A stretch of 64,000 nucleotides of DNA from positions 1 through 64,000 of the forward strand of contig NZ_WITC01000049.1 of NCBI RefSeq assembly GCF_009601505.1. The letters are read 5' to 3'. Positions 612 through 25,995 of the stretch are shown here, in pieces (position 1 is the first letter of the stretch; every line of letters starts with the position of its first letter). The position numbers and the translations under genes are program-made. This DNA is from Sinorhizobium terangae (GTDB lineage: Bacteria > Pseudomonadota > Alphaproteobacteria > Rhizobiales > Rhizobiaceae). The notes below the pieces were generated by a model that did no database searches, was not told where the DNA came from, and was given only the letters and a program-made list of their open reading frames with translations.

Positions 612-1072
612 CATTGGCGCCCTTCACTTCACTGCTTTGAATTTATGGACCGACGCGGGATCATGCATGCGGTGCCCGCGAGCCGGCGACCAGGGTAGCG
701 TCGCAATAAACACGTGGGCAGGCGAGATCCTGCTCCCTCGCCTGATGCGGCTCGCGTTCACCATCGCCTCACCGCCGCTAGAATAACGCAATCGCGGGGT
801 GGAGCATCCCGGTGTTGCTCGTGAGGGATCGGGTGACGTTCAACATCACTAGCCTACCATGACCGCCGTACGTCTCAGAGAATCGTCAGTATCTTCAAAA
901 TATTACAGGCTCTTGCTTCCAAAGTGCTTTCGCAATCGGAGCGACGGGGCACCAGCCTGCGGAGATTGGTGAGCGCCATTCATTCAATAGATCCGCTTCC
1001 TTGTCACGGCTCGCCATTGAGCGCTCCATCAGGCGCAGATCTCACTTAATCAGAGAACGCCAGGCTCCGGCG
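612..1072. other. Intergenic stretch without a recognisable gene
   Basis: About 460 bases between the nod box and the end of the phosphopantetheinyl transferase gene. I see no coding frame with family resemblance on either strand and no clear terminator. Confidence 0.5.
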
Positions 1073-1723
1073 CTAGCTGTGCCCTGCAATGAATACTGCA
1101 GTTAGTATCAGTCCATTTGCAATGCGGAAGTGGCCGCGGAGTTCCCAAGCACAATTGCGGGTCGGCATGAGCGTGTTGGGAAGCCGAGCAACAAACGTCC
1201 CGTCCGGAATGAAAGTGACCACCGCATCCTCGAATCCCAACCATTCACGTGTGAGCGGAAACCACGTCTTGAAGATGCTCTCCTTAGCACTGAAGAGCAA
1301 TCGGCCCCAATTGAGGTGCCTTGGTGCGTTGGCCAGCCACTTTCGCTCCTCGTTAACCGAAATGAGCTCCAACACGCCCGACGGCAGCTCCTCGTCGACT
1401 TCTGCATCGATACCGAGCGCAACGTAGTCCTCCTGCAGGGCCACAGCGGCGGCACAGAATCCAGCACAATGTGTTATGCTGCCGACTATGCCGGCTGGCC
1501 AAAGGGGTGCCCGGTCAGGTCCACTTGGAATGGCGCACGGAGGAAAGCCAAGCTTGGACAATGCCGATCTGGCACAGGCTCGTCCGACGGAGAATTCACG
1601 CCTTCTGCTTTCGACGGCCCCGGCCACTGCACTCTCTTCTTCGACCATCACGTCGGCCCTGCTGTCTGTACCTGCTCGCGAGGTTTGCACGGCTATATTC
1701 GATGGAAGCAGCGTCTCTATCAT
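1073..1723 (-). CDS. 4'-phosphopantetheinyl transferase (EntD/Sfp type)
   Basis: This 216-residue protein should transfer phosphopantetheine from CoA to the carrier-protein serine of the NRPS encoded in the same cluster. The family motifs are in order: VGSITHC near residue 80, LGIDAE near 103, which supplies the Mg-binding acidic pair, and FSAKESIFK near 145. Length and the conserved SITH motif fit the EntD branch rather than the short AcpS branch. ATG 1723 is preceded by AAGGAA at a normal distance. It is the last gene of the leftward NRPS-MATE unit, 126 bases after the MATE gene. A dedicated transferase travelling with a two-carrier NRPS suggests the cluster is self-sufficient after transfer. 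NodF, also a carrier protein, could be a second substrate, but that is speculation. Confidence 0.85.
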   Translation of the reverse strand: MIETLLPSNIAVQTSRAGTDSRADVMVEEESAVAGAVESRRREFSVGRACARSALSKLGFPPCAIPSGPDRAPLWPAGIVGSITHCAGFCAAAVALQEDYVALGIDAEVDEELPSGVLELISVNEERKWLANAPRHLNWGRLLFSAKESIFKTWFPLTREWLGFEDAVVTFIPDGTFVARLPNTLMPTRNCAWELRGHFRIANGLILTAVFIAGHS

Positions 1724-1849
1724 TTGAGATTTCCTTTCGCTTGAGCACTATTGCGTACTTCATGGAAAGTCGTGCTTGCGGCGATCACTGCACATGGCGT
1801 TTTTAAGCGGGTTAAGCGTTAGCAGCCAAGGGTAAGTAAGCATGACTTG

Positions 1850-3259
1850 CTAAATACACTCGGCTTTAGCCTGCCGGAGCATTCCTTTGAGATTGTTGAA
1901 CTGCTTGACCGCTACAAAGACAGCAAGCAGTCCTGCCAGCAGCTCAGCAGCTGCCTGGCTGACTAATAATCCTGTGAAGCCCCAAATGCGTGGAAACAGC
2001 AGTATGGCTGGCACGAAGAGATATCCCTGCCTTGCGAAGCAAACGACCGCGCTCAGGCGTGCTCTCCCGAACGACTGAAGCATAGTTATTACCACGTGTT
2101 GGACGCCAAACAGCCCGAAAAAGAGATGGAACATAATACAGGTGGAAACGGCGATTTCAGTAACACCCTCGCTGTCGCTGAAAAGGTGGACGATTGGCCG
2201 GGCGAAAATCACAACCAAAGCAGAAAAGATGACTGAATAGGCGCAGACTGTGGAAAACATGAAGCTCGCCGCCTTCTGCACCCGAGCGAAATCCTGTGCT
2301 CCCCAACTGAAACCAAGAACCGCTTGTGAGCCGATGCAAAAGCCAATGATCGGGAATGTTCCGATTGTTAGCAATCGTGCGGCTATACCCACAGCGGCAA
2401 TGGAATTGTCGCCGAATGTGGCAGCAGCCCTGTACAAGAGCATGAATGAAGCCGCAGTCAGAATACCGTTGATGGTCACTGGGGCCCCAACGGCTGCGAT
2501 CTGCTTTACTAGGTCGCCTCTCAAAGTGATGTAGGAAGCTCGAAAACGGACAATCCCGCGCTGCTTCGCGAAATACACGACATACATGCTGGTGGCGACA
2601 ATCTGAGACAACAGTGTTGCCAGCGCGGCGCCGCGAACTCCGAGATCCAGCGTGAAAATTAGAACCGGATCGAGCAGCGCATTCAACGTAAAAGCCGTAA
2701 TCATGGTCCACATGCTGAACCGGGTGTTACCCTCAGCCCTTACGATGTAGCCATTGACCATGTTCAACAGGATGAGGGTGTAGCCAACTACGAGTGTCGA
2801 TGCATAGTCGAGCGCGACGGGCATTATCGTCGGACTGGCGCCGAGCAAAGCGAGAGCGTCGCGCAAACTGAAAAGGAGGGCGACAGTAAGCGCCAGCCCA
2901 ATCAGAGGCACGAGAGCCAGCGCCAAGCTCGCACCACGACTCGCTTCCAATGAGTTGCCGGCGCCAAGATTGCGGGACACGAATGATGCCGTACCGGCTC
3001 CGATCCCCTGCCCCACTGAGGAGAGCAGCACTACGAGCGGAAAAGCAATGCTGACGGCGGCGATTGCCTGGGGGCCAAGCCTTCCGACAAAGATTGCATT
3101 CACGACCTGCTGGAGTCCATTGATCGACAAACCGATAATCGAGGGAATGGCGAGGCGCATGATGAGGCGGAAAACGTTGCCGTCCAACAAACTGATGTGC
3201 TCTGCCGGCGATGCCATGCGTTCGTCTTTGCCTTTCATATGTAGCTCCAACGGCCTCAT
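1850..3259 (-). CDS. MATE-family efflux transporter
   Basis: A 469-residue membrane protein with about twelve hydrophobic segments arranged in two similar halves. The first begins with LIMRLAIPSIIGLSINGLQQVVNAIFVG, typical of the MATE (NorM/DinF) family of cation-coupled antiporters, and near residue 280 a second copy contains AAVGIAARLLTIGTFPIIGF. Its ATG overlaps the NRPS stop codon in ATGA, so translation is probably coupled and the two proteins made together. A second in-frame Met lies eight codons in. From its position the likely role is export of the NRPS product or self-protection. Substrate cannot be read from sequence. Confidence 0.85.
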   Translation of the reverse strand: MRPLELHMKGKDERMASPAEHISLLDGNVFRLIMRLAIPSIIGLSINGLQQVVNAIFVGRLGPQAIAAVSIAFPLVVLLSSVGQGIGAGTASFVSRNLGAGNSLEASRGASLALALVPLIGLALTVALLFSLRDALALLGASPTIMPVALDYASTLVVGYTLILLNMVNGYIVRAEGNTRFSMWTMITAFTLNALLDPVLIFTLDLGVRGAALATLLSQIVATSMYVVYFAKQRGIVRFRASYITLRGDLVKQIAAVGAPVTINGILTAASFMLLYRAAATFGDNSIAAVGIAARLLTIGTFPIIGFCIGSQAVLGFSWGAQDFARVQKAASFMFSTVCAYSVIFSALVVIFARPIVHLFSDSEGVTEIAVSTCIMFHLFFGLFGVQHVVITMLQSFGRARLSAVVCFARQGYLFVPAILLFPRIWGFTGLLVSQAAAELLAGLLAVFVAVKQFNNLKGMLRQAKAECI

Positions 3260-6200
3260 CCGTTGACCTGTGCAAACGCATCGACAGTCCGTAGGAGCTC
3301 CTCGCGAAAGTTCGTGCAGAGGCTGCGGGTGGATTCGTAGCCTACTTGTCTTGGATCGTATCTCACCTCAATTTGCAGTTCGCCCGATTGGTATCCGACA
3401 CGGAACCAAAAGAGATAATTCATAACTGACTGGTTCATGTCTTCGCCGATCCATAGCGGGTGTGAATCTCTGGATAGCAGGCGGCGCGGATAGTGACGTT
3501 GGAGTCTCGTTCGGTAGTTCACTCCTATCCTGGGTAATGGCAGACGATCGATCCGCTCCCGCACTGCGGGCTGCCGATTCAAGTACTTCAAAGCTCTAAA
3601 ACCTATGCCCTTGCGGGGCAAGGAGCTGCGTTGCTGATATATAGAGCGAGCGCGGTCTAGACGAGACTCCGTTTCCGTAACGTATAATGGCAGCGGTACC
3701 AGCTCACCGATGTAGCCGATCGTTTGCGACGAATCGATGTCGTCGAAAAGACCTCCCCGAGTCGAGGTGAGACTGTCAATCCAGAGCGAGTAATTTCCAA
3801 AAGTGCGGCCAAATGCCCCCGAGATAGCCGCAAGCAGAATGTCGAAATCTTCACAATGCGCGGACGTTGGCGCAGCCTTGAGAAGGCACGCCGTCGTCTC
3901 CTCACTGATCCTAAGATGATATGTAGCATGATCTTTCCACAGCGGGCTGCAGAGCTTCTCGTCGATTATCTCCTCAAAGCCTGCATAGTGGAGCCACCTC
4001 GCAGTTTCAGCTGAAAATCCCGCCGCACGTGACCCGGCGTCGCTTACGCGCATATCGAACAAGTCATACCGTAGGCTCTCCCAATACTCGAGCTCGGCTT
4101 GCGCTTCACCATTCGCGTAGTCATTCAAACGGCCGAGCCATTGAGACAGCGGCGTGGCCCCTGGATCTACAGGGGTTTGGCCCGCAGCAAACGAACTATA
4201 AGCTGCGTCGAGCGCATTCAGGAACAGTCGGTATCCAACCCCGTCTGCTACAAAGTGATGGAGCAGAACAAGTAAATAGTAATCGCCGCTTTCTGATGTC
4301 CGGAAGGCCGAGACTTTGACAAGAGGCGTCCTGCCGTCAAATCGAAAACCGTGCTGACGCTCCGCGCAGGCGCGCTCGATGACTTTGAGTTGTTCTGATG
4401 TGGGCACACCGACAAGGTCCACTTCCTCTACCGGGGAATCTGCTGCTGATCCGATTACCTGAGATAGGCCCCTGTCCGTTTGGTCGATACGGAGCCTCAG
4501 TCCTTCCTCCCGGCCGATGACATGCAAAAGGGCACGTTCAAGAATGGATATATTCAAGACTCCGGCGGGCATGAAGAAAAGATCGCCAATGTTGTAGTGC
4601 TCGCCGATTCCGACAACGCTATTCCAATGTGTGACTGCAGGGGTTACCGGCAGTGGTCCCTTGGGAGTGGCACACGTCGCCGCCGGCGCTTCGTGCGTTG
4701 CCAGTTGCCGAATCGTCGGCGTCCTGTGCAGCTGACCGACCGTCAAGTTCAATCCCGCGTTACGCGCTAGTGTGACGCACCGCACGCTCAGAAGCGAATT
4801 TCCGCCGATGTCAAAGAAGCTGTCGTCAATGCCGACAGATTTGGTGCCCAACAGCTCTTGCCAGATCGCGGCGAGGAGTTGCTCCTTCTCCGTGCGCGGT
4901 TCAGGCGATCTGATTTTTTGGATCGGCCGGGACGAGATAGAAGGCAAACGAGCCCGATCTATTTTCCCGCTGGGTGTGAGCGGCATACATTCCACTATGC
5001 GAAAGTCTGATGGCATCATGTAAGATGGGAGTGCCTGGCGCAGATGAGTAATAATGTCTCCTGAGGTCAGATTTTCGCGAGCTGGGGCCACAATGGAAAC
5101 GAGCCGCCGATCGTCGTCCACGCCCTCTACCAGAGCGGCGGCTTGCGCAATGCCAGGATGAGATTCAAGCGCCGCTTCAATTTCCTCCAGCTCAATTCGG
5201 AAACCCTGAAGCTGAATTTGGTTGTCCGCACGACCGCAAATCTCCAGAAGGCCTTTGGCTGAGATGCGAGCGATGTCGCCACTGCGATAAAGGACACTGT
5301 ATTGGCCTTCATCGTATGGGTTTGGCACGAAAGAGTGCTTAGTTCGTGCTGGGTCCTTCCAATATCCCGCGCTCACACAGCGTCCTGCCATGCAAAGTTC
5401 ACCTAAGACTCCGACGGGAACCCGCTTCAACTCTGCATCAAGGACATAAGTTTTCACATTATCGATCGGGCGCCCAACCGGAACAACTGATGAGCCATCG
5501 TCGACGTCCGATGTTCGGTACACCGCCGCATTAGATGCGCACTCCGTAGTGCCATAAAAATTCCATAGCGGCACATCTGGAAAGCACTCTCGCCAACGAC
5601 TAGGAAGCGATGGCGGCATCGGTTCAGCACTGCTTGTAACTAGGCGTAAGCTGGTCGTTTTCGCCTGTCGCTTTTGAGAGGTGATTAACCCAGTCAAAAC
5701 GGGCGGAGAGGCAAACAACCGCGTAACCTGATACCTTGTCAATGCCCCTAACAAGAGATCGGGGTCGACCAATTGCTCATGCGTAAGGATCAGCGTCGGA
5801 ATGCCCTTCAGGAGCCCTCCAAAATACTCCCACAACGCAGCAACAAGCGCCGCTGACTTCTGAACAACCATCACGTCGGTGCGATCGAAAGGAAAGCATC
5901 GCCACATCCAGTTCAATCGGTTGAGAATTGCAGATTCGGGTATAAGAACGCCCTTCGCCTTACCCGTCGAGGACGAAGTATATATTAGGCTGGCTGCACC
6001 CTCCTCGAGTCGCTCGACAGTTCGGCTCGAGACCCGTCGAGGATCGTATCCACCCTGCAGCGTAGACAGATTAACGCACGGCACACCGAAAGGGGCCTCT
6101 TCATCCGCGATTGCGTGCACAAGGAGGCTTGCCCCACTGTCCGTTATGATGTGGCCAACCCGTTCCTTCGGGAAACTTGGCGATATAGGCACTACGGTCG

Positions 6201-9200
6201 CCTGCAAATTGCGGATCGCCAAAGTTGCGGCCGCTACATCTGGCGACCGGTCGACCAGCATGGCGACCCTGTCACCCGCACCCACCTCGCAAGTTCGCAG
6301 AACGGACTGGATCGTATCCATGCGTTTGCGCAACTGGCCATACGTGATTGCCCCGAACTCGCCGAAATAAGCCACCTGATCGCCTGTTGAAGCGCTTACC
6401 TGATTAAACGCTTCCACAAGCGAAGGCTCGTTCTCACATGACGGCTCATCGCCCTTTAGCGCGTTTAGAAAGGCGACTTCCGACGGGCTGAGGTCGCTTA
6501 AGGCGACAATCGGCTCGTCTGGCCTCTCGATACAGGCAGCAATGAGATGGCGAAGATTATCGGCCATGCGAGCGATCACATCGCTCGAAAAACTGTCTTC
6601 GGCATAAGCCAGTTGCAACGCAATTGCATCGCCTTCGTCTTGCGCGTACAGGGTAAGGTCGAATTTCACATAGCCTGTGTCATATTCGCGAAATGTCAGA
6701 TCCAGATCGTGTTTTGCCGGAGGTTCCGCAGGCTCGGAATACATGTTGAACATGACTTGGAAGATAGGCGATTGACCAGGCTCGCGGTGGAATCGAGTAT
6801 CCCGGACCATCCAGCTAAATGGATACGCCGAGTTCGCGATAGCATCGCTTACAATGTCCTGCACGTCAGTCGCGTGCTTCACAAAGGATTTATTGACATC
6901 GATCGTGGTTCGGATTGGCAGCATGTTGAGGAAGAATCCCACGATCTTCTCGGTGCCTGGTTGGCCACGCACCACATGCGGTATGCCAACGACAACATCG
7001 TCTTGCCCGCTATACATTCGCAACAGCAGCTTGAAACACGCTAAGAGGATCGTAGAAGTCGTGCATCTGTGCCGACGTGCAAAGTCTCGCGTTTGCTCAG
7101 ACAGTTCGCGGCCAAGGAAAAACGCATGCGAGCTCCCGCGGCAGGAGTTCTCTTTCGGCCGCAGTCGCCTGTTACCTAGCAGAAGTACCGGAGGATTGTC
7201 GCCTATCTGCCGACGCCAATAACGTCGCTGCTCATCGAGCGACTCCGGTGTAATGTGTACACTTTCCCAAAGAGCATATGTCGAGAGGGATGTGCGTTCG
7301 GCTGGAGAGAACGCAGCGGCATTGGAGTATCTCGTCTGCAAATCTCTAAGGAGGACAGAGATAGACCACGCATCGATGATGATTTCGTGCGCACTTATCA
7401 GTATGAGATGGTCATCTGCGCCGAGGCGGATCATCCGTGCACGAAACAAACGTCCTTGACTGAGATCAAAGGTGGTGTTGAGCTCCGTGCGCCGCAGCTC
7501 CGCAATTAGTTCGTCGGCCTCCCCTTGAGTCAGGTGAGTGGCGTCCATAAACTCTAGGTCGAAGCCCTGTGGATCATCAAAAATCTGAACCGGCCCGTCT
7601 TCGTCGCTGAAACGTGCTGAAAGCGCGTCATGCGCCTGAACAACATCGAACCAGGCTTCATTGAATGCGGTCAGATCGATGGCACCTCGTATGCGCAGAC
7701 CGCCCTGGATAATGTAGTTCTTCGCATTCGGATCGAGCTGCCATAAGAACCAGAGGTGTTCTTGCACTCGTGTCAGGGGTGATCGTTTGAGCTTCCCGCT
7801 CGCAGGAAGCAAGTTCTGTGTTGTCTTGGATTGCGTTGAGATCGCCGCTGCCAGCGATCTGATGGTCCCATTCAGAACAAGCCTGAAATCCACCTTCGCC
7901 CCGAGCTGCCTGTGCATTTGAGCCAATATAAGCGTCGCCCGGAGCGAGTCACCGCCGAGGTCCATGAACTGGTCGTTGACGCCGATAATTTTGATCCCAA
8001 GAACGTCGGACCAAATATCTCGCAGCGTGCTTTCCAACTCCGTCTTTGGCTCCTCGAACGGGCTCAGCAGCTCGGGGCGAACGGCCGACGGTTCGGGCAG
8101 TGACGCGAGATCCACTTTGCCGTTTGGGGTGATAGGAAGCCGGTCGACACGAATGATTCGTTCTGGAACCATGTAGCTGGGAAGCGCTTCGGCGACAAAG
8201 CGCCGGAGTTCACCCTCCGTTAGCTCGGCAGGAGCCGACACATAGGCCACTATTCGTCTTCGGCCAGGCTCGCGGTTGACACAGGTTATGTCCCTCGCCG
8301 TAAGCTTCACGTTCTCGTGGACGGGTGCGGTAGCCACTGCGGCCGTTACCAAAGGATGAGCGCAGAGGTGAGACTCGATCTCTCCAAGTTCGATCCGGTG
8401 CCCGCGGAGTTTGATCTGACGATCTCGTCTACCCAGACATTCCACAAGGCCGTCTGCCCTGATGCGCCCGAGATCGCCGGTCTTGTAGAGGTGTCGATAG
8501 GACGGGTGGTCGGAGAACGGGTTTGGCAGAAAGGCGTCTCTGGTACGGTCGTTATCGTTGATGTATCCATCAGCGACACCGACTCCACTGACATAGATCT
8601 CGCCGACTTCTCCCGTCTTGCACAGACGCATTCCATTGGCGACATAGACCTTAAGACTCGAAATCGGCTTGCCGATGGGCACATAGGTGTCAGCTGCGCT
8701 GGGTGGGACCGATATCAAATGGTGCGTCACCCCGTCCGCACATTCTGTCGGGCCGTAGTGATTGAGAATGGGGACTTGAGGATAGAGCGTCAGCCAACTG
8801 CGTGCCAAGGCAGGCGTCAGCGGTTCGCCTACGGTGGAGATCATGCGTAAGGCACTGAGGAGCCGCTCGTTGGCTGAGAGTGCCTGCAGGTGTTCAACGA
8901 ATACGGCGAGCACCGATGGAACGAATTGGGCGATTGCAACACGATGGGCCTGCAGAGCTCTAAGAAGGGCCATCGGAGATCGCAGTGCAGCATCATCTAT
9001 GATCGCGACGCAACTGCCGACACACAAGCCTGCCAAAAGCTGCCACAGGGAGATGTCAAAGCCATGAGAGGCAGTCTGTGCGACACAGTCCTGCTCGCTT
9101 AGTTCGAGGGCATCTATCTTGGCCATCAAATGGTTGTTTAGACCTGCGCGCTGAACCATCACGCCCTTGGGCCTTCCCGTCGAACCGGACGTAAACACAA

Positions 9201-9699
9201 TGTAAGCGAGATGGGGATCAGCCGAAGATGGTCTTGCAGGAGAGACGCGGCTACCGAGTAGCGCCGTTTCCACCGTCATGAATTGTCTGACGCCGTCGCA
9301 GTCCTTCTCAAAAAGACCAAGCGCTTCGGGTTTTTCCGGCCCGATAATCAGAGTGCATCCACTTTGCTTAATCATGAAGGAAATTCGGGAGGCCGGTAAG
9401 GATGGGTCGAGCGGCAAATATGTTGAACCGCTTTTCAGAATGGCGATTACTGTGGCTACCCAATTGAAGTTCCGTTCGCCGCAATAGGCCACGACTGCGC
9501 CATCCGCGCAGCGCTCCCGTATGGTGTTTGCGATGGTGTCTGACAGCACCCGCAGCTCACCATATGTGAGTTCCTCCGAGCCATGTTGGATCGCAATCCT
9601 GTCGGGGGATGATGCCGCAATCTTATCGATAGCCACGACGACATCGATGAACTGGTTTCCGACAAATTCGGGTTTATCAGATCGAACTTCGTGAAGCAT
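3256..9699 (-). CDS. Two-module nonribosomal peptide synthetase, A-T-C-A-T-C/E
   Basis: 2147 residues. Domains in order: adenylation A1 (residues about 20-545; FTSGSTGRPKG near 167, FDISLWQ, YGPTE, PNGKVD), carrier T1 (LGGDSL near 583), condensation C1 (about 645-1085), adenylation A2 (about 1110-1610; YTSSSTGKAKG near 1244, YGTTE, PSGKID), carrier T2 (IGGNSL near 1633) and a final condensation/epimerization-like domain (about 1700-2147; HHFVADG near 1816, then QTIGYIG). There is no thioesterase or reductase domain and no starter C domain. Two departures stand out. C1 has HEIIIDA where HHxxxDG is expected, so the second, catalytic histidine is Glu. A2 has LVAALWE where FDxSxWE is expected, so the Asp that binds the substrate alpha-amine is Val. 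A2 may therefore load a non-alpha-amino acid. ATG 9699 follows GAGGAG. It is probably transcribed from the sigma54-like site just upstream, together with the MATE and transferase genes. The product is unknown. Confidence 0.93.
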   Translation of the reverse strand: MLHEVRSDKPEFVGNQFIDVVVAIDKIAASSPDRIAIQHGSEELTYGELRVLSDTIANTIRERCADGAVVAYCGERNFNWVATVIAILKSGSTYLPLDPSLPASRISFMIKQSGCTLIIGPEKPEALGLFEKDCDGVRQFMTVETALLGSRVSPARPSSADPHLAYIVFTSGSTGRPKGVMVQRAGLNNHLMAKIDALELSEQDCVAQTASHGFDISLWQLLAGLCVGSCVAIIDDAALRSPMALLRALQAHRVAIAQFVPSVLAVFVEHLQALSANERLLSALRMISTVGEPLTPALARSWLTLYPQVPILNHYGPTECADGVTHHLISVPPSAADTYVPIGKPISSLKVYVANGMRLCKTGEVGEIYVSGVGVADGYINDNDRTRDAFLPNPFSDHPSYRHLYKTGDLGRIRADGLVECLGRRDRQIKLRGHRIELGEIESHLCAHPLVTAAVATAPVHENVKLTARDITCVNREPGRRRIVAYVSAPAELTEGELRRFVAEALPSYMVPERIIRVDRLPITPNGKVDLASLPEPSAVRPELLSPFEEPKTELESTLRDIWSDVLGIKIIGVNDQFMDLGGDSLRATLILAQMHRQLGAKVDFRLVLNGTIRSLAAAISTQSKTTQNLLPASGKLKRSPLTRVQEHLWFLWQLDPNAKNYIIQGGLRIRGAIDLTAFNEAWFDVVQAHDALSARFSDEDGPVQIFDDPQGFDLEFMDATHLTQGEADELIAELRRTELNTTFDLSQGRLFRARMIRLGADDHLILISAHEIIIDAWSISVLLRDLQTRYSNAAAFSPAERTSLSTYALWESVHITPESLDEQRRYWRRQIGDNPPVLLLGNRRLRPKENSCRGSSHAFFLGRELSEQTRDFARRHRCTTSTILLACFKLLLRMYSGQDDVVVGIPHVVRGQPGTEKIVGFFLNMLPIRTTIDVNKSFVKHATDVQDIVSDAIANSAYPFSWMVRDTRFHREPGQSPIFQVMFNMYSEPAEPPAKHDLDLTFREYDTGYVKFDLTLYAQDEGDAIALQLAYAEDSFSSDVIARMADNLRHLIAACIERPDEPIVALSDLSPSEVAFLNALKGDEPSCENEPSLVEAFNQVSASTGDQVAYFGEFGAITYGQLRKRMDTIQSVLRTCEVGAGDRVAMLVDRSPDVAAATLAIRNLQATVVPISPSFPKERVGHIITDSGASLLVHAIADEEAPFGVPCVNLSTLQGGYDPRRVSSRTVERLEEGAASLIYTSSSTGKAKGVLIPESAILNRLNWMWRCFPFDRTDVMVVQKSAALVAALWEYFGGLLKGIPTLILTHEQLVDPDLLLGALTRYQVTRLFASPPVLTGLITSQKRQAKTTSLRLVTSSAEPMPPSLPSRWRECFPDVPLWNFYGTTECASNAAVYRTSDVDDGSSVVPVGRPIDNVKTYVLDAELKRVPVGVLGELCMAGRCVSAGYWKDPARTKHSFVPNPYDEGQYSVLYRSGDIARISAKGLLEICGRADNQIQLQGFRIELEEIEAALESHPGIAQAAALVEGVDDDRRLVSIVAPARENLTSGDIITHLRQALPSYMMPSDFRIVECMPLTPSGKIDRARLPSISSRPIQKIRSPEPRTEKEQLLAAIWQELLGTKSVGIDDSFFDIGGNSLLSVRCVTLARNAGLNLTVGQLHRTPTIRQLATHEAPAATCATPKGPLPVTPAVTHWNSVVGIGEHYNIGDLFFMPAGVLNISILERALLHVIGREEGLRLRIDQTDRGLSQVIGSAADSPVEEVDLVGVPTSEQLKVIERACAERQHGFRFDGRTPLVKVSAFRTSESGDYYLLVLLHHFVADGVGYRLFLNALDAAYSSFAAGQTPVDPGATPLSQWLGRLNDYANGEAQAELEYWESLRYDLFDMRVSDAGSRAAGFSAETARWLHYAGFEEIIDEKLCSPLWKDHATYHLRISEETTACLLKAAPTSAHCEDFDILLAAISGAFGRTFGNYSLWIDSLTSTRGGLFDDIDSSQTIGYIGELVPLPLYVTETESRLDRARSIYQQRSSLPRKGIGFRALKYLNRQPAVRERIDRLPLPRIGVNYRTRLQRHYPRRLLSRDSHPLWIGEDMNQSVMNYLFWFRVGYQSGELQIEVRYDPRQVGYESTRSLCTNFREELLRTVDAFAQVNG

Positions 9700-9762
9700 A
9701 AGTCTCCTCTCGGGGCGCTGCGATCAGTAGGTCACGGTATTTCGTGACGCGTCGCGAGGAGG

Positions 9763-9784
9763 AGTTTCAAAATTCGTGCCAGCT
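9763..9784 (-). promoter_or_regulatory. Sigma54-like promoter of the NRPS operon (imperfect -12)
   Basis: Read leftward the segment contains TGGCACG-AATT-TTGAA. The -24 half (TGGCACG) is perfect and the spacing to TTG is exactly that of TGGCACG-N4-TTGCW, but the usually invariant C of the -12 GC is A. The predicted start would give a leader of about 55 bases before ATG 9699. The NifA-type site about 100 bases upstream supports it. The -12 mismatch keeps confidence moderate. Confidence 0.45.
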
Positions 9785-9866
9785 CACGCAGAGAGGCGCT
9801 CAGGCAAGAATGAAGTGCAATATCAACCGTTTAAATGAGGAGCAAGAAGCTAGGTCGAGCTACATT

Positions 9867-9882
9867 TGTCGCGGACTCTACA
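9867..9882. promoter_or_regulatory. NifA upstream activator-type site (TGT-N10-ACA)
   Basis: TGT at 9867-9869 and ACA at 9880-9882 are separated by exactly ten bases, the NifA enhancer consensus. It lies about 100 bases upstream of the sigma54-like promoter of the NRPS gene, within the normal 80-150 base range. A six-base motif occurs by chance often, so its position relative to the promoter is the main support. Confidence 0.5.
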
Positions 9883-10336
9883 AAACGGACAACGGTGGCG
9901 GGTTAGGCGCGTTTCCGACGCATAGCGGACAGGAGAGTGTGAACTTAACCAGTGCGAGTGCAGCCTTAGCACGGTTTCAAGTCCGCGTTGCGCCGACGAA
10001 TCCTGCACAGCGCGATTTCTTTGAGCCGGTGGAGACGCGTTTGATCGCCACCGTTGCGACACAAGAGTCGTCGGGCGCCATTGAAGTGGTGCAGCTTTAG
10101 CTGGACGACAGCTTCCTTGCGACGCCGGTGGGCGGAATTTGGTGCTGGCTACGTGGAACGGAAACGGAAGCTAAGCCGCAGTGGGTGATATTCACAGCCA
10201 CATCTACGCGCGCCTCTGTCCGGGCTCGCGCGAGTGCCGTCGAGCCGCTGCGCGCCCATCGCCAGCAAGCGCGTGCAGCGGCTCGAAACCGCCAAGATGT
10301 CGAACGAAGACCTGGGTCGGCGATGCACGTGGCGCT
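9883..10336. other. Intergenic, no recognisable intact gene
   Basis: Open frames on both strands here show no family resemblance. The region lies between the NifA-type site and a Tn3 transposase relic, so part of it may be decayed transposon sequence. Confidence 0.4.
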
Positions 10337-10423
10337 CGCTGAGCCTGTTGCGAGACCACGATCGATCGGGATCCCCAGTAGTTGTTCCCGCTCGGCTTCG
10401 CTCAGCAGTTCGTGCTTGCGCAT
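10337..10423 (-). pseudogene. Tn3-family transposase N-terminal relic
   Basis: The minus frame opens MRKHELLSEAEREQLLGIP followed by IDR, the characteristic first residues of Tn3-family TnpA (its N-terminal domain). Similarity ends after about 25 residues. The rest of a transposase of nearly 1000 residues is absent, so this is a fragment. It separates the NRPS unit from the diiron-methyltransferase-transporter unit. Confidence 0.6.
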
Positions 10424-10641
10424 TTGCGGTCCTCCCGGCCAAAAGCCCGACAGTCCTTACCGTCGTTTAGTGGGAAACCAACGCGATGCCCTCAACAAGA
10501 GTGCCTCTTTTACCGGCAGCGTGCCACGCCCGATCGAACCAAAGCCGAGCGCGAAAGTCTCCATTACCTCCACCATTCCCAAGTTTTTTCGACAAGCCGC
10601 GCAATCCTCGTGCGCACGTCGATAGATTCTCGGCGTACGCA

Positions 10642-11547
10642 TCAGCTCACTGCCATCACCCCAAGAAGAACAATTAGGCTCCCTATGGCCTTTCGGCTAA
10701 ACTTACCTCCCCCATTGTCCTCCCGCATTAGATTCGGGAACGCCTGTGACAGTGTGGCGCTCAAAATAAATACGTAGATTGGGTGGATACTCGAAACCGC
10801 CGAAACCATAGCAGGTTTATCTGAAATATTCAGGGCCTTATAGAAGGACACATAACCCAGAAGATCAAAAACTCCTGCAAGGAATACCAATCCGGCCTTC
10901 TTTAGAAGGCCAATCCGCCCAGCGTGAAAGGAACGCGCACGGTATTTTTTAATTGACAGCGCAATCAATCCAGACCCGCCATAGCCCAATGCACTTTGTC
11001 CGGCGATGTCCATAACCCTCATATCCGTCAAGGCTACGTCGGAAACGATTGTTGCAATTGCACCGATCAACGCCGAAGCAACCAAAAGACCGGTGCTCCG
11101 TAAAGAAATTAGTGGTTTTCTCGTCGATGCCGTATCTGTACGCCAAGAGGTGAACCAATGGATACCGACGATTATTAGGATGAATCCCAAGACTTCACGT
11201 CCCGTCGGCAATCGGCTATACAAGACAAGAGCCAGAAGCATCACGAAGAACGGCTCTATTTGGTGAACGGCAATGACCGATGTGATGTCTTCGTCGTTAA
11301 GCACGACCGCATAGAGATAGTAGAGAACGAACAAGAGGGCGCCTACCAGCACCGCAAGCAGTGACAGAGACCCGCCTATTCCGGTCACCATTAACCACCC
11401 CACGAAGACCACCGTGTAAAATTGACTCAAAAGGAACATGAACTGCTGCGGCGTCTCGATGGCATGGTCCATACCAATCTTGTCTACGATATTGGACAAC
11501 GCCCAAAACAACGGGCACACCAGCGCAACCACGATCCACTGTTCCAA
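10642..11547 (-). CDS. EamA/DMT-superfamily transporter
   Basis: A 301-residue protein with about ten hydrophobic helices in two repeats, the pattern of drug/metabolite transporters of the EamA type. Recognisable pieces are VCPLFWALSNIVDKIG at the start, VIAVHQIEPFFVMLLALVL near residue 95 and a second-repeat counterpart AMVSAVSSIHPIYVFILSA near residue 245. The start appears to be TTG 11547, with GGGG a normal distance upstream and only a few bases after the methyltransferase stop, so it is the third gene of a tight leftward operon. Export of a small metabolite, or import of a precursor, would fit the neighbouring NRPS cluster. Direction and substrate are not known. Confidence 0.8.
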   Translation of the reverse strand: MEQWIVVALVCPLFWALSNIVDKIGMDHAIETPQQFMFLLSQFYTVVFVGWLMVTGIGGSLSLLAVLVGALLFVLYYLYAVVLNDEDITSVIAVHQIEPFFVMLLALVLYSRLPTGREVLGFILIIVGIHWFTSWRTDTASTRKPLISLRSTGLLVASALIGAIATIVSDVALTDMRVMDIAGQSALGYGGSGLIALSIKKYRARSFHAGRIGLLKKAGLVFLAGVFDLLGYVSFYKALNISDKPAMVSAVSSIHPIYVFILSATLSQAFPNLMREDNGGGKFSRKAIGSLIVLLGVMAVS

Positions 11548-11550
11548 GTC

Positions 11551-12381
11551 CTATCCCCGTTTTGCGAAGGCCGTCATGCTTGGACCGCAGGGTTCGACCA
11601 TCAGATTCGGATGCAGCGCCAGCACACGGTCGATCTCGGACTGCGGTAGGTAGTCGTTGAAGATATGAACCTCGCTGCCGGGAAAGCGGCGGTGTGCTTG
11701 TTCGAGGATTTCTTCGTGCACCCGCGTCTCTCCACCAACCACATAGCAAGAAATCTGCGGAAGAGCACGGTGAAACAGCTCCCATTCGGTACCGGTGAAC
11801 CGGTCGCCCGGAGCAAAGCGATTACCCCAAGGGGGGTAGGCGAAAATCATGTCTGGAGCTGCGTCGGTCTCCAACTCAGCCAAGATATCGCTCTCGATCA
11901 GGCGCACACGCAGCTGTGCCATTTCACAATTAATCGCCGCCACATTCAGCGCAGCCCCGTCAATATCCAGTCCAAGCCAATCAAGGACGGGAAGCGCGGC
12001 TGCCGCGCATCGTCTTGATAACGCGCAAAGGAAAGCGCCACCACCGACACCGACCTCACATATCCGCAGCGCGCGCCTGCGCAACACGACCAGCCGCTGC
12101 GCCTCGGCCACCAGCCGGTCAAGAAAAGCCAAGCTGTCGTCCTGCGCGATGTAGGCGCGGCGATCTGCATGGTAGCGCACACCATCAAATAGTTGCCACC
12201 CGAGGATGTACTCTGGCTGGTCCCCGGCAAGATATCGTTTCAACCAGCGAACAAATTGATCTACATTGCCCCCGGCCTCGATCCAAAGCATTCGCGCCGC
12301 CGTTTCCGCCGCAGTTCCTGGACGAACGTGGTTCGCCAGATCAGGACCGCACGCCACCAGGATACGTTCAAACGTTTCCAT
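11551..12381 (-). CDS. SAM-dependent methyltransferase (HemK/PrmC-like fold)
   Basis: About 276 residues from ATG 12381 (METFERILVACGPD); an upstream in-frame TTG at 12417 would overlap the preceding gene. Motif I is VGVGGGAFLCAL, the acidic residue of motif II is in LGLDIDG, and motif IV reads AYPPWGNRF, a variant of the (N/D)PPY motif of enzymes that methylate planar amino or amide nitrogens. The overall plan, a helical N-terminus followed by a class I methyltransferase core, resembles PrmC/HemK, but YPPWG in place of NPPY argues for a different substrate. It lies between a diiron enzyme gene and a transporter gene, so a tailoring step in the NRPS pathway is plausible. Substrate not predicted. 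Confidence 0.8.
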   Translation of the reverse strand: METFERILVACGPDLANHVRPGTAAETAARMLWIEAGGNVDQFVRWLKRYLAGDQPEYILGWQLFDGVRYHADRRAYIAQDDSLAFLDRLVAEAQRLVVLRRRALRICEVGVGGGAFLCALSRRCAAAALPVLDWLGLDIDGAALNVAAINCEMAQLRVRLIESDILAELETDAAPDMIFAYPPWGNRFAPGDRFTGTEWELFHRALPQISCYVVGGETRVHEEILEQAHRRFPGSEVHIFNDYLPQSEIDRVLALHPNLMVEPCGPSMTAFAKRG

Positions 12382-12385
12382 AGGA

Positions 12386-13156
12386 TCAGAATTGTAGTTG
12401 CGCGCAGAAATCTGCAAACTCCCGCTCGTGGTTGAAAAAGCTGCACAGGGTACGACCGGATTCTACAAACAGTTCCTTCGAGAAGTCATCCGTGTCATGG
12501 TCGAATAGGAACGTGCCGTGATAGTGTAAGTCGCCGGCCAATTCATACTGGCATATCGCATCGACACGCTCAGCGAGTTCATTCAGGCGATGCCCGTGCG
12601 CGTACTTCAGCAATTCCAGCGCGTTACGCGCGTGGACACCCTCGTCGCGCCCCGCGTATTTTACCCACGTCAGGAAGGGCTCACCGCCAAGGGCGGTATA
12701 GGTATCCCGATCATACGCGTAGGCGCGTGCACTAGTGATCTCGTCAAAGGCGACCGCAACGAGCAGAGAGAACTCATCTTGGATCAGATGGGCAATCGGC
12801 CTGAAATCAGGAATCCGACCCTTAATTTTTCTGTCGATCTCCTCGCGAGGAGTATCGTAGAGACGATGGTATATCTCCCGCAAGCCAGCATAGTGGTTCT
12901 GCTCATCGCGCAGCCACGCTTCATGCAAGGTCTTAAACCCATCTGAAAGGAGCATACCCTGTGATTTCAGATAATTTAACAGATGGATAGAGTCGTATTC
13001 CGAACTCATATCATGCTCGAAATACGGTCGGCGCTCTTCTGCAAGTTCCGTCCATTTTCCGACAGGGGCCGAACCATCGGGTCCGAGGACATCGAGCGAC
13101 GACCAAAGATGATACTTCGCCTCGAAGCCCTTTGAGGTATAGATGGACGTATTCAT
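12386..13156 (-). CDS. Ferritin-like diiron oxygenase/oxidase
   Basis: 256 residues, mostly helical. Metal-ligand patterns are seen in order: DEQNHY near residue 87 (E and H), FDEITSARAYAYD near 139 (E), and DEGVHARNALELL near 171 (E and H). This E..ExxH..E..ExxH-like set is that of carboxylate-bridged diiron enzymes in the ferritin-like fold, which in biosynthetic clusters perform N-oxygenation, desaturation or C-H hydroxylation. I do not recognise the exact family. It begins at ATG 13156 and is the first gene of the leftward operon with the methyltransferase and DMT transporter, each separated by only a few bases. Co-directionality with the NRPS unit suggests a precursor-forming or tailoring role. 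This is inference, since a transposon relic separates the two units. Confidence 0.72.
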   Translation of the reverse strand: MNTSIYTSKGFEAKYHLWSSLDVLGPDGSAPVGKWTELAEERRPYFEHDMSSEYDSIHLLNYLKSQGMLLSDGFKTLHEAWLRDEQNHYAGLREIYHRLYDTPREEIDRKIKGRIPDFRPIAHLIQDEFSLLVAVAFDEITSARAYAYDRDTYTALGGEPFLTWVKYAGRDEGVHARNALELLKYAHGHRLNELAERVDAICQYELAGDLHYHGTFLFDHDTDDFSKELFVESGRTLCSFFNHEREFADFCAQLQF

Positions 13157-13616
13157 GCGCAGAACTCCAAATAATACGTTTACTTCAATTTCTCATGCTA
13201 GGTAATCTGGTACAAATTACCCGCTCAGTTTATATCGACGTGTCCCCTGAGGATAAACATGAGCCAATTACCTTGATTTTGGATAAGTTCATGTTGCCGG
13301 CCGTCGGCCGCCGCCAAGATTTTGGCACGCCGGACATCAGGCAGGGTTTTAACGCTACAAGACTTAGCCATTCCGATACCAAGCGGAGGCGGCTTCGCTG
13401 GACTGATCTCCGGGTGGTGACTGGCGAGGCTGCATGGAGGAACTCTGCTAAGTCGTCGGTAGGATTGTTGGCCTTTGCCCAAGCAACTGCCGTGCCAACC
13501 AGAAAACCATTTCCAGACAACGTGATCACTCTAACAGCGCAGTGTCTCATGTCGGACATATTGTCAAAACGCCGACGAATGTGTGCACCTGGTGTGATGT
13601 CCTTGGAACCTTATTA
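13157..13616. other. Upstream region of the diiron operon; no recognised gene
   Basis: About 460 bases that should contain the promoter of the leftward diiron-methyltransferase-transporter operon. I found neither a sigma54 -24/-12 pair nor a convincing nod box for the minus strand, and the open frames have no family resemblance. Confidence 0.4.
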
Positions 13617-13805
13617 GGTCGTCCCGAGCTCCACCGACTTTCTCCTGGCGGGTGCGTCGAGGATGAGATGAGGAAAAGGCTCGGGAAGCAGGCGCTTGGC
13701 GAGGCTCTCATCCAAGCGTTTGTTGATGGCTAAAATCGCAGAAGCGGAGAAGTCATGTCCGCAAAGTTCTTCCGTGATCGACTTAACCTTCCGTGTGGAG
13801 AACAC
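13617..13805 (-). pseudogene. IS256/mutator-family transposase fragment
   Basis: A 63-codon minus frame contains VKSITEELCGHDFSASAI and INKRLDESLAK, then HLILDA, which are consecutive conserved blocks of IS256-type transposases. A short internal deletion is apparent before HLILDA, and both ends of the roughly 400-residue enzyme are missing. Confidence 0.7.
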
Positions 13806-13913
13806 TTTGGACGTACATCTCCGCCAACATCGACACCAGCGCCTGTTCGGGCTACCAGGGATGCCATTAATTCGACCGACTGCTCAGCGACCCGCGGCAC
13901 ACAACCTCATAAA

Positions 13914-14360
13914 TCATGTGGCGCCGTCATCCCGGTCGGCGAAACACTTCTCGTAGAAGATCACTCCGTATCCGTGCAACATCCCTTCCCCGCGGCTGAT
14001 ATAGCCAGCCGTCTATTGGATCGTTGTCGTGTCAACCTTTATCCACTTGAATCCTAGGGCAACGGCTCGCGATTCCAATTCGCTAAGAATCCTCCCCCCA
14101 AGTCCTCGTCGTTGAAAGGGCGGATCGACGTTTCAATTCGGCGACGTCATCGTCAACGGGTTGCACGTCGCCCATAGCAGTGAGTTTGGAGCCGATGTGC
14201 GCAACTACGACGTCGCCGCCTGATGCGATATATACTTCGCCGATATTGTGTAAGTCATCCTCCCACACCGCTTCCGGACCACGCACACCAACAGCCTCAG
14301 ATGCCCTCCTATGCAGAAGCCACACATCATTGGCATCCCGTGGCTCGAACCGACGAGGGG
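13914..14360 (-). pseudogene. GNAT acetyltransferase pseudogene (frameshift and internal stop)
   Basis: From the 5' end the minus strand reads RFEPRDANDVWLLHRRASEAV and later GEVYIASGGDVVVAHIG and VDDDVAELKR. Near 14129 the frame must shift by one base to continue as DPPFQRRGLGGRILSELE, which is the acetyl-CoA-binding RRxGxG/A signature of GNAT acetyltransferases. It continues through FKWIKVDTTTIQ to an in-frame TAG and then TAGYISRGEGMLHGYGVI, ending in CFADRDDGAT and a natural stop at 13914. One frameshift plus one nonsense codon make it non-functional as read. Its 5' end abuts an IS5 relic, which may have removed the start. Confidence 0.75.
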
Positions 14361-14483
14361 CCGACCGGTCTTGGCATAGAGTGCCGCAAACGATCCATCC
14401 AGCGACGCAAGCGCGGCGTTCACCAAGTCGCGCAACGCCTGAAGGGGGTGCCTTGGCGCAATCCGTGCTTCAAGGTTTGACAT
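14357..14483 (-). pseudogene. IS5-family transposase N-terminal fragment
   Basis: The minus frame from ATG 14483 reads IAPRHPLQALRDLVNAALAS and FAALYAKTGRP, the N-terminal block of IS5-group transposases (DHPLRxIRxLVNxAL...LYxxxGRPSIPPE). Similarity stops at GRP, where the GNAT pseudogene begins, marking an old insertion or deletion junction. Confidence 0.7.
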
Positions 14484-14545
14484 AGGAGGCGTCGGTTCCG
14501 GCTGGGAGCGCAAACCAACCCCTCGGTAGAATACAGATTTTGCTT

Positions 14546-14561
14546 TGGCACGTTTTTTGCC
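14546..14561 (+). promoter_or_regulatory. Consensus sigma54 promoter of the metallopeptidase gene
   Basis: TGGCACG-TTTT-TTGCC has a perfect -24 element, the exact spacing (GG-N10-GC) and the -12 GC. Transcription would begin near 14573, leaving a leader of about 20 bases before ATG 14596. In rhizobial symbiotic regions such promoters are normally served by NifA. I did not find a TGT-N10-ACA enhancer site in the preceding 250 bases. Confidence 0.75.
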
Positions 14562-14595
14562 GCTGCTGATCGTGAGCCGGTAGGAGCGACCGCAT

Positions 14596-15552
14596 ATGAA
14601 CGAAACAACGACCATAATATGCATCTGGACAGTGATGATAGTGCTTTTCGGCTTTTTGGCTGCGCCCGCAGTCGACCTAGGCGGCGGGGATCAAGGGGCA
14701 TCCGCATCGCGGATGCAGGCGGCTGATATATCGAGTTTCGATAGGTTCATAGTGCGCAGCCCGCCGAAATCGCTTGGTTTGGATCAGTTCTACGCGAAAT
14801 ACGCTGACGCAGAAGGGGTACCTATTATTGCGTCGGAGAAGGTTCCAGACACGGCACTCTTGATTGCCCGTGACATCGTCATTTACATGCTGTCAGAACG
14901 GCGTGATGTCCGCGATGCCATGATCCGGGCCGGGGCGCGGGTGGGCGTCATGGCAGTTGATGAAACGACCACTGACATTCCCGAGCAGCGGGACTTGAAG
15001 AAGCCGCCCCCCGATGATCCGCGACTCACTCCTGGCGAACGGCGCAATTACGCCAACACGATCGGCAAGATGACGGACCGGGAATACTGGGCGTATCGGG
15101 CGCGTGGCCTTGGCGGACTATATACGACGGGGGCCGCCGAGAATTTAATGTCCGTGCCGGGAACGTGGCACTATGGAGGAAACATCCTTGTCCATGAGTT
15201 CTCACATAATATATTCAACACACTTCGCACGGTGGACCCTGAACTCGTTGCACGTGTCGAGCGGGCTTACACTCAAGCCAAAAAGAAGGGCTTATGGGCG
15301 TGTGCGTATATGGAGAACAATGTCGACGAGTATTGGGCTGAAGGCACCCGGTTTTGGTTTAATACGAATATGGCCTACCGCCGTGGCGAGACCACAATTG
15401 CCACATCAGAGGACTTCAAGGCTCACGATCCAGAACTCTACGATATCATGGCCGAAGTCTATCGCCATGACCACCATATTTTGGCGGATGCCTTTTATCA
15501 ACACCCCGCACAGCTACGGGTAACGACGGTCGATCCCGAACACGGCTGTTGA
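14596..15552 (+). CDS. Secreted or anchored zinc metallopeptidase (HEFSH)
   Basis: 318 residues. A hydrophobic N-terminal segment (IICIWTVMIVLFGFLAA) serves as signal peptide or membrane anchor. The zinc-binding motif HEFSH is at residues about 200-204 in NILVHEFSHNIF, and a second acidic cluster, DEYWAEG at about 244-250, offers the third ligand in the gluzincin manner (E-x-x-A-E). Two cysteines, one near residue 235 and one at the very end, could form a disulphide in an exported protein. The start is ATG 14596 with GTAGGAG upstream. I do not recognise the exact family. The E(Y/F)xAE arrangement recalls lethal-factor-like and other M34-type peptidases, but that is a weak guess. The sigma54 promoter immediately upstream suggests expression with nitrogen-fixation genes, so it may act in the symbiosome space or on plant proteins. 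Confidence 0.75.
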   Translation: MNETTTIICIWTVMIVLFGFLAAPAVDLGGGDQGASASRMQAADISSFDRFIVRSPPKSLGLDQFYAKYADAEGVPIIASEKVPDTALLIARDIVIYMLSERRDVRDAMIRAGARVGVMAVDETTTDIPEQRDLKKPPPDDPRLTPGERRNYANTIGKMTDREYWAYRARGLGGLYTTGAAENLMSVPGTWHYGGNILVHEFSHNIFNTLRTVDPELVARVERAYTQAKKKGLWACAYMENNVDEYWAEGTRFWFNTNMAYRRGETTIATSEDFKAHDPELYDIMAEVYRHDHHILADAFYQHPAQLRVTTVDPEHGC

Positions 15553-15686
15553 TGGCTAAAAGCGAAGAGTGCGTCTTGACCCAGTGCTGTGCTCGCCGCG
15601 CCTCGATCATTTGCATGCCGGGCTGAGGTCGGTCGCAGGTCGTTGGTCTCCTGCAGAGCTAAAGGTGGCGAAAATAGCATTCAGTC

Positions 15687-15735
15687 TATTCAGAACATCA
15701 ATGCGTGGCATCCAAACAATCAATTTTCCTAATCT
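15687..15735 (+). promoter_or_regulatory. nod box of nodFE
   Basis: TATTCA (15687), AATG (15700), ATCCAAACAATCAATTTT (15710-15727) and AATC (15731) fall at the positions of the nod-box consensus, and the 3' half is nearly perfect. It ends 173 bases before the nodF start. This is the NodD-flavonoid control site of the nodFE operon. Confidence 0.88.
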
Positions 15736-15908
15736 TAGTCGATAGTGCATGTAAAATGTACTTAACATCCAAGTGCTTTTTATGACTTTGTTGTCCATGT
15801 CAATTCCAACCATGTTCCATTCTACTTCAATAAGCAATCCAGTCCGCTGTGCGAACCTGTCTGAGACGCATACGCTCGAAATCGACGCGTATAATGGAAG
15901 GAATTGGC

Positions 15909-16187
15909 ATGTCCGATCAATTCAATGAGGAATTAATAACTGCAATCAGGAAGCGTGCCGAGTCGGAATCTGGGGCAGCTACATCGGCGGATTGCGAAGA
16001 AATAACAGTTGCAACGGAACTAACCTCGCTCGACCTTGATTCGCTCGACCTAGCGGATCTTCTCTGGGATCTTGAGCGAGCCAACAACGTTGAGATCGAC
16101 CTGGACTTATCGGACGCCTGGTCAAATCTTCATACCGTCGGCGATATAGTGGAAGCTGTCCGCCCCCTTTTGGCAAAGGAAGCCTGA
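15909..16187 (+). CDS. nodF: NodF acyl carrier protein
   Basis: 92 residues from ATG 15909, chosen because AAGGAA lies just ahead and the length equals that of known NodF. The phosphopantetheine attachment serine is in LTSLDLDSLDLADLLWDLE, and the C-terminal block DAWSNLHTVGDIVEAVRPLL is diagnostic for NodF rather than a housekeeping AcpP. NodF carries the growing acyl chain on which NodE builds polyunsaturated (trans-2-unsaturated) fatty acids that NodA transfers to the chitin oligomer. The stop codon is followed directly by nodE, so the two are co-transcribed from the nod box at 15687. Confidence 0.93.
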   Translation: MSDQFNEELITAIRKRAESESGAATSADCEEITVATELTSLDLDSLDLADLLWDLERANNVEIDLDLSDAWSNLHTVGDIVEAVRPLLAKEA

Positions 16188-17396: not shown

Positions 17397-17693
17397 TAGC
17401 GGACGTCATGCCGTGTCCGGTCAACGCTCCCCGTTCTGCCTCGATCATTTTATAGCGCGCTTCGGTCCTGTTATTCGACGTCGCGGCCCGTACCTGAATG
17501 TCCTTTACCGAACGTGTCATACCAATTTACAAACGCAAAGAGGCTAGGTTCCGACGGGTGCGGGACTTTCGGAAACAAACACTTGTTGCCCCGATGATGC
17601 GACAAGATCCGGGAAACCTGCATCCACATCAGATTGGCGTCCGCACCCGGGAACGGCCCTGATCTCAGTGGCGGTCAGTGTGTCGCCGGTCGT

Positions 17694-19454: not shown

Positions 19455-19596
19455 TGATCCACCGTATAGATCGAGCGGTTTCGTGAGTCGCGCCCTGTTC
19501 CAAGTTACGACGCCTCCGTCAAAGAGCAGAAGATGCCGTCCGATGCAAGGTAATGTATGCACTGAGTTATGTTCAAGCATGTGTAACTCGTGTTAT

Positions 19597-25672: not shown

Positions 25673-25995
25673 GTGCCCGTCTGGAAGAAAGCACCCTTTA
25701 TGTGGCGGCGACCCGACCAGCGTTGTTTTTCGGGGTGCCGCTAACCGTGGCTGGGTTGTTCATGATGTCGGCCGGGTTTTTGATCGTCATCTTCAAGAAC
25801 CCCCTTTACGAACTTATTCTTGTGCCACTCTGGTTCGCAGCGCGCGTCATCGTAGAGCGTGACTATAACGCTATGAGCGTAGTGTTGCTTTTTCTGCAGA
25901 GTGCCGGCAGAAGCGTTGATGGCCAAGTTTGGGGCGGAGCAAGTGTTAGCCCCAATCCAATAAAGGTGCCGCAGCGCGGAAGAGGAATGATCTAA
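25669..25995 (+). CDS. virB3: VirB3 inner-membrane T4SS protein
   Basis: 108 residues. Begins inside the virB2 stop (ATGA overlap) and ends in TAATG shared with virB4, so the three are translationally coupled. A hydrophobic hairpin near residues 20-55 (FFGVPLTVAGLFMMSAGFLIVIF) is the family's membrane anchor. VirB3 associates with the VirB4 ATPase and is needed for pilus assembly. Confidence 0.93.
   Translation: MSARLEESTLYVAATRPALFFGVPLTVAGLFMMSAGFLIVIFKNPLYELILVPLWFAARVIVERDYNAMSVVLLFLQSAGRSVDGQVWGGASVSPNPIKVPQRGRGMI

Follow-up and report, generated by a model that had tools for sequence, protein, structure and literature searches.

Gene content of the locus

The DNA analysed here (the window) comprises bases 1-64000 of contig C84 (77,165 bases) from a 7.08 Mb draft genome of Sinorhizobium terangae. 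A scan for open reading frames (ORFs) combined with Pfam and NCBIfam searches revealed genes for a phosphopantetheinyl transferase (PPTase), a MATE exporter and a two-module nonribosomal peptide synthetase (NRPS), followed by an operon encoding a DMT transporter, a methyltransferase and a putative diiron enzyme, and this group adjoins nodFE. ORFs and domains are as described in an earlier reading made from the letters alone (the sequence-only reading). All genes, domains and promoter sites given below for the two operons are located on the minus strand.

The first operon encodes an Sfp-type 4'-phosphopantetheinyl transferase (1073..1723; Pfam 4PPT_N and ACPS), a MATE family exporter (1850..3259; Pfam MatE, TIGR00797 over the cut-off) and an NRPS of 2,147 aa (3256..9699; Pfam domains), the stop of which overlaps the start of the MATE gene. 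AMP-binding, PP-binding (with Ser) and Condensation domains follow each other in modular order as A1-T1-C1-A2-T2-E/C, i.e. adenylation (A), carrier (T), condensation (C) and epimerization-type (E) domains. A1 covers 8080..9642, C1 with its AHEIIIDAW motif 6430..7794, A2 4930..6417 and the terminal epimerization-type domain 3256..4692. The second operon encodes a DMT/EamA transporter (10642..11547; Pfam EamA), a class I methyltransferase (11551..12417), which is distantly PrmC-like and received no equivalogue assignment, and a predicted ferritin-like protein of the diiron oxygenase/desaturase type with 256 aa (12386..13156).

NifA/sigma-54 promoter motifs in front of both operons

Regulation had been overlooked in the sequence-only reading. 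We searched for an upstream activator site (UAS) TGT-N10-ACA together with a -24/-12 element TGGCACG-N4-TTG[CA] at nif-like spacing. By this pattern only two pairs were found on both strands of the 64-kb window, one before each operon, and none in 20 first-order Markov simulations of the window. The NRPS operon is preceded by the -24/-12 site TGGCACGAATTTTGA (9767..9781) and, 85 bp upstream of it, by the UAS TGTAGAGTCCGCGACA (9867..9882). In front of the diiron operon, the motif matches are the -24/-12 site TGGCACGGCAGTTGC (13483..13497) and the UAS TGTCCGACATGAGACA (13543..13558), located 45 bp further upstream; this upstream region contains the UAS and TTGGCACGGCAGTTGCT. Both pairs are laid out like the nifH promoter of this genome (UAS, 89 bp, TGGCACGGGTTTTGT, counted by eye), the spacing of the diiron pair being shorter than that of nifH.

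Genome-wide, three pattern searches yielded 2, 7 and 1 matches, against 0 in every reversed-pattern control. The set of 7 includes the NRPS site, and the search with the single match returned the diiron site. According to PMC3538637, nifH of both M. loti and R. etli carries A at -12, a feature shared with the NRPS site. A nod box was not detected in the window by any of three patterns (0 matches, even before nodFE and nodC), which were too strict for a judgement. The motif pairs indicate that both operons are probably controlled by NifA and RpoN and act in nodules. Thereby the action in symbiosis proposed in the sequence-only reading gains promoter motifs on both operons, at the level of sequence evidence, and it is these motifs, not the closeness to nodFE, which carry the argument.

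A conserved NRPS module on symbiotic replicons

In a tblastn search of 72,556 plasmids with the NRPS (best 20 of 2,833 records), a first clade of 14 plasmid records matched over the full length at 75.1-80.2% identity. These belong to the genera Sinorhizobium, Rhizobium and Mesorhizobium, with Acaciella, Desmanthus, Calliandra, Vachellia, Phaseolus, Leucaena and Oxytropis as host plants. Beyond this clade, the next six among the matches listed reach 36-38% identity. A second clade of 8 records was obtained with the copy of Rhizobium sp. T136 as query (best 60 of 2,995 records, ordered by coverage x identity), T136 itself being one of the 8. Five of them (Rhizobium sp. 007 with two replicons, S. 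numidicum with two records, and S. garamanticum) are 87.5-87.7% identical to the T136 copy, and T1470 and T1473 match it in two pieces at 74.3%. The T136 NRPS shows 36-37% identity to the first clade, and the remaining records do not exceed 33.5% among the matches listed.

A MATE gene follows the NRPS gene in all 14 first-clade plasmids and, behind these two, a PPTase gene is present in 13, an IS6 transposase taking its place in M. huakuii 583. All of the three second-clade loci fetched contain the MATE gene and two an annotated PPTase. Both nodC and nifH are present on 16 of the 17 records checked (16 plasmids and, via locus L019, genome G032). In G032 the two genes lie on the NRPS contig, and the NRPS has the same coordinates there as on the Sinorhizobium terangae plasmid NZ_CP121661.1. 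The contig of the window carries nodC at 59607-60788. Among 394 family genomes, the terminal NRPS domain was detected (E <= 1e-60) in 6, all of them within the 20 genomes with nodC over the cut-off. These records bear out the earlier view of the NRPS as a gene of symbiotic replicons.

Ratios of nonsynonymous to synonymous substitution (dN/dS) across the tested pairs amounted to 0.19-0.24 for the NRPS and 0.26-0.31 for the PPTase, and to 0.17-0.31 for NRPS, MATE and PPTase together, as for genes under purifying selection. The NRPS was not found in viral contigs. NRPS, MATE and PPTase are a discrete, conserved, selected and mobile module of symbiotic replicons. The sequence-only reading knew of no described product that fits, and in agreement with this no description of the module appeared among the literature matches listed; neither peptide synthetases nor NRPS are mentioned in the main text of PMC3557214, PMC3898782, PMC4125696 and PMC5011921. 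Apparently, this symbiotic NRPS module is undescribed so far.

Promoters were compared in 17 first-clade loci (the window, the 14 plasmids, one of them represented by G032, and genomes G025 and G102). The frameshifted NRPS of L042 was retained in these counts and excluded from the NRPS alignment, and the partial NRPS of L018 was excluded from promoter and pocket counts. The strict pair precedes the NRPS in 13 of the 17 loci; the other four (R. jaguaris, NXC24, CB3171 and CB3060) exhibit one UAS mismatch at unchanged spacing. In M. huakuii 583 the DNA alignment to the window is confined to the inside of the NRPS gene, and nonetheless this locus has a promoter pair of its own.

Contig C136 of genome G000 contains a second copy of the NRPS promoter stretch (L059 798-994, 78% identical) before an ORF in the region of the contig that aligns with the IS6-transposase portion of L005. 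Further along C136, formyltransferase and condensation domains are encoded by an incomplete reading frame (L059 5014-6786). Since the RTX match of G025 has a formyltransferase-type NRPS on its left (L015 3-3344), C136 may lie beside C84.

Adenylation pockets and terminal domain of the NRPS

The A1 pocket DIWQSVHDGK, read by eye like all pockets here, is identical at its first nine positions in all 19 full-length sequences, apart from one that has Val in place of Ile at position 236. Among solved structures, the third module of the pyoverdine synthetase PvdL (PDB 9lco/9up2; pocket DIWELTADDK) comes closest to both the A1 pocket region and the terminal domain. A1 lacks the Glu (278) and the Asp (331) of this pocket, from which we guess that its substrate is an amino acid whose side chain is small and polar, and not diaminobutyrate (Dab). 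We take the third PvdL module to be Dab-specific.

In A2 (VAWFTSFSNK), Asp235 is replaced by Val in all aligned sequences (Ile in one), so that the usual alpha-amino contact would be missing. The beta-alanine code, which we assume to be VDWVISLADK, has V, W, S and K in common with this pocket and differs at Asp236 and Asp331. A literature search for a beta-alanine adenylation code gave no match.

The solved structures that best match the terminal domain belong to epimerization-domain synthetases (PvdL, bacitracin, tyrocidine and gramicidin), and its score against TIGR01720 is 40.6 bits, below the cut-off of 74.2. The HHxxxDG motif is present in the window and in 18 of the 19 full-length sequences, L045 reading HHFLTDA. 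In all 19 the catalytic Glu of EGHGRE, absent also from the PvdL-like domain of the window, is replaced by Leu or Ile (by eye). Without this residue the domain is unlikely to epimerise; it may release or cyclise the product, probably a small dipeptide-like compound that is exported.

The diiron operon as a probable separate insertion

Genome G025 has the same NRPS-nodFE junction as the window, but the two stretches of it that align with window 786-9944 and 15680-17471 (in pieces with 88.1, 90.6 and 85.9% identity) are separated by about 330 bp, compared to 5.7 kb in the window. The segment absent from G025 (9945..15679, no strand assigned) lies between NRPS and nodFE and bears mobile-element scars, the fragments 10289-10439 and 13637-13850 matching stretches annotated as Tn3 or IS256 transposase or integrase in some plasmids. 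In G102, homology to the window likewise stops at 9952. The 22 NRPS-bearing plasmid records do not overlap with the 17 plasmid records containing a diiron relative. The diiron gene occurs in 1 of the 394 family genomes, compared to 6 for the NRPS, and in 1 of 33 in the genus set. We infer that the diiron operon was inserted later beside the NRPS.

A different cassette, encoding a DMT transporter, an argininosuccinate-synthase-related protein and a 2-oxoglutarate (2OG)-Fe oxygenase, lies next to the NRPS in M. huakuii 583 (L005 5021-7915). It is preceded by a 100-bp stretch 79% identical to the diiron promoter, with its own UAS and -24/-12 site (by eye). The cassette is not present in the stretches fetched for the two further Mesorhizobium loci, where the alignment to L005 begins beyond it.

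The sequence-only reading had joined both operons into one pathway. As the main explanation, a single pathway is not supported by the distribution, none of the 22 NRPS plasmid records sharing a diiron relative, nor by the G025 junction. Of the two observations that the sequence-only reading had named as speaking against itself, a consistent absence of diiron and methyltransferase partners and a location outside symbiotic replicons, the former was made and the latter was not, the replicons being consistently symbiotic.

The putative diiron enzyme and its relatives linked to homospermidine synthase

The 256-aa protein showed no sequence match in Pfam, NCBIfam, PADLOC or PDB, and its model gave no match at E < 0.001 by Foldseek alone. 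It exhibits a ligand pattern of 4 Glu and 2 His (E...ExxH...E...ExxH) on a predicted ferritin-like helical fold and is, by this model, a putative ferritin-like diiron enzyme. Fold and pattern are shared with acyl-ACP desaturases and R2-like diiron proteins, from which it differs by only about 10% identity, other gene neighbours and the missing PDB and Pfam sequence match.

The diiron-DMT pair occurs in the same order in Pseudomonas and Paraburkholderia (L021-L028, Paraburkholderia nodosa included), behind a homospermidine synthase gene, the window DMT being 29-32% identical to the DMT found there. In contrast to these operons, the window has the methyltransferase between diiron enzyme and DMT and no adjacent homospermidine synthase. 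Homospermidine synthase is encoded directly upstream of the diiron relative in 12 of 13 genome contig loci, and the enzyme of PA7 differs in one residue from the solved homospermidine synthase 6y87. This neighbourhood suggests, by analogy to the relatives, that the diiron enzyme may act in polyamine chemistry. The best 15 of 715 literature matches contained nothing relevant on a link between homospermidine synthase and a diiron enzyme.

Assignment of the methyltransferase as a PrmC/HemK glutamine methyltransferase was rejected (TIGR03534 55.6 bits, far below the cut-off of 199.1). The same applies to a defence role, its sole PADLOC match being a partial mads_2 hit (40.2 bits) which we took as generic; the diiron and DMT proteins had no match in this defence search.

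In L007 and L029-L032, two diiron paralogues stand in tandem behind homospermidine synthase, together with a 118-aa protein. P. tremae (L007) additionally has a rubredoxin gene, encoding a possible electron donor.

A probable pair of separately promoted pathways

Taken together, we consider it likely that the two operons are independent, separately promoted pathways which would both be switched on by NifA and RpoN (sigma-54) in bacteroids. The analysis itself yielded the gene content and its distribution, the absence of the segment in G025, the promoter motifs, the conserved ligand pattern and the predicted fold; NifA control, substrates, products and roles are what we infer from them. According to this model, NifA and RpoN would turn on both operons in nitrogen-fixing bacteroids, and the PPTase would prime both carrier domains of the NRPS. 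A1 might load an alpha-amino acid whose side chain is small and polar, and A2 an acid outside the usual alpha-amino contact, e.g. a beta- or omega-amino acid, and C1 would join the two. The terminal epimerase-derived domain, lacking the epimerase base, might release or cyclise the product and the MATE transporter export it, possibly toward the plant. The putative nitrogen-fixation promoter indicates that this product is probably made inside nodules. In the diiron operon, homospermidine or a derivative would be oxidised, then methylated and then exported.

More tentative is a wider proposal, which could go either way: the NifA/sigma-54-driven NRPS cluster family of Sinorhizobium, Rhizobium and Mesorhizobium (from mimosoid legumes, Phaseolus, Oxytropis and temperate legumes) might make a new bacteroid-specific, exported dipeptide-like compound acting in the nodule, and some strains might add NifA-driven small-molecule cassettes beside it, here a homospermidine-oxidising diiron pathway with a new enzyme family. 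To our knowledge, few secondary metabolites are bacteroid-made. The NRPS, found on symbiotic plasmids of three genera with nif-linked promoter motifs, offers a defined target for gene knock-out as the candidate source of a nodule-made compound. For the diiron family, which has no Pfam or NCBIfam match, a candidate substrate is suggested by the link to homospermidine.

Several observations weigh against the model of two NifA-driven pathways. Both promoters are motif matches, the strict pattern misses nifH of this very genome, due to a T at -12, and none of the 10 genome-wide matches is located at nifH, several preceding genes without known nif role (by eye); for these reasons the motif pair alone is no proof of NifA control. 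The four Rhizobium loci with a UAS mismatch also have a degenerate -24/-12 element (TGGCATG-N4-TTGA or TTGG), and the strict pair is present in none of the three second-clade loci tested. Related loci, three from Mesorhizobium being alike (two are 98% identical to M. huakuii 583), reduce the 17 promoters to few independent cases. Similarly, 5 of the 6 NRPS-positive family genomes belong to one genus, so that the association with nodC among the 394 genomes is not an independent test. In T136 the NRPS cluster comes after nifN, nifX and fdxB with an IS630 transposase in between, and plasmid p_2 of M. huakuii 583 contains no nodC or nifH and no PPTase where one would be expected. This gap and the decayed copies (NRPS frameshifted in M. 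loti 582, PPTase split in G014, NRPS annotated in pieces in T1470 and T1473) show that the module is dispensable in some strains. Interpretation of the pockets, read by eye, and of the terminal domain follows general NRPS knowledge. The polyamine link is drawn by way of relatives, and the diiron operon of the window contains no homospermidine synthase, the lone homologue of genome G000 being encoded on another contig (C78, 48%).

Alternatively, the NRPS product might be an antibiotic or a selfish, rhizopine-like nodule currency that helps plasmid or strain over the plant. The patchy and mobile distribution with occasional decay, the included exporter and the nif-type promoter motifs would fit, but in the annotated flanks, the annotation of which is incomplete, we recognised no accompanying gene for catabolism or immunity, and we regard this as rather unlikely. 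A joint pathway, in which tailoring of the NRPS product falls to the diiron enzyme and the methyltransferase as an accessory graft onto a conserved NRPS, would agree with two adjacent operons on the same strand, each with a NifA/sigma-54-type motif, and with the different cassette at the same place in M. huakuii 583. It is made improbable by NRPS relatives without the diiron-operon genes, by the homospermidine-synthase-linked neighbourhood of the diiron-DMT pair, in whose 12.5-kb loci tblastn with the window NRPS gave no match, by a separate exporter in each operon, and by the confinement of the M. huakuii cassette to one of the three Mesorhizobium stretches. It is quite improbable that the NRPS makes a siderophore or metallophore to supply nodules with metal. 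The small size of the NRPS, its dedicated PPTase, the presence of EntF and MxcG among the NCBIfam matches and an FAD-dependent monooxygenase annotated nearby in three plasmids would fit; against this stand EntF and MxcG scores of 616.4 and 657.6 bits at cut-offs of 2400 and 2300 bits, a MATE exporter, nif-type promoter motifs, and fetched flanks (PLSDB annotation incomplete, L041 unannotated) in which no gene for dihydroxybenzoate (DHB) synthesis or a siderophore receptor is annotated.

Two pathways under putative NifA control can be compared to known systems. Rhizobitoxine and rhizopine (mos genes) are small symbiotic metabolites of rhizobia which are NifA-regulated and are not known to be NRPS-made. 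The NifA-RpoN regulon of M. loti R7A shares the layout of UAS and TGGCACG-N4-TTGC/A, the location on a symbiotic replicon and targets beyond nif, as described in PMC3538637. By a term search the text of that paper names no peptide synthetase, whereas the putative target here is an NRPS operon.

Further features of the window

Directly after nodE, the window contains a VirD4-like gene (17694-19580) and, further on, VirB4 of a type IV secretion system (25995-28364). The GC content at 46-54 kb is 0.68-0.69, compared to 0.54-0.62 in the rest of the window. Two P450 genes were scored at 43982-54861, and their neighbours resemble what we take to be the rhizobial gibberellin operon, the search itself having shown the P450s only. 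A reading frame at 14596-15552 has relatives on many Rhizobium symbiotic plasmids, where they are labelled hypothetical or glycoside hydrolase.

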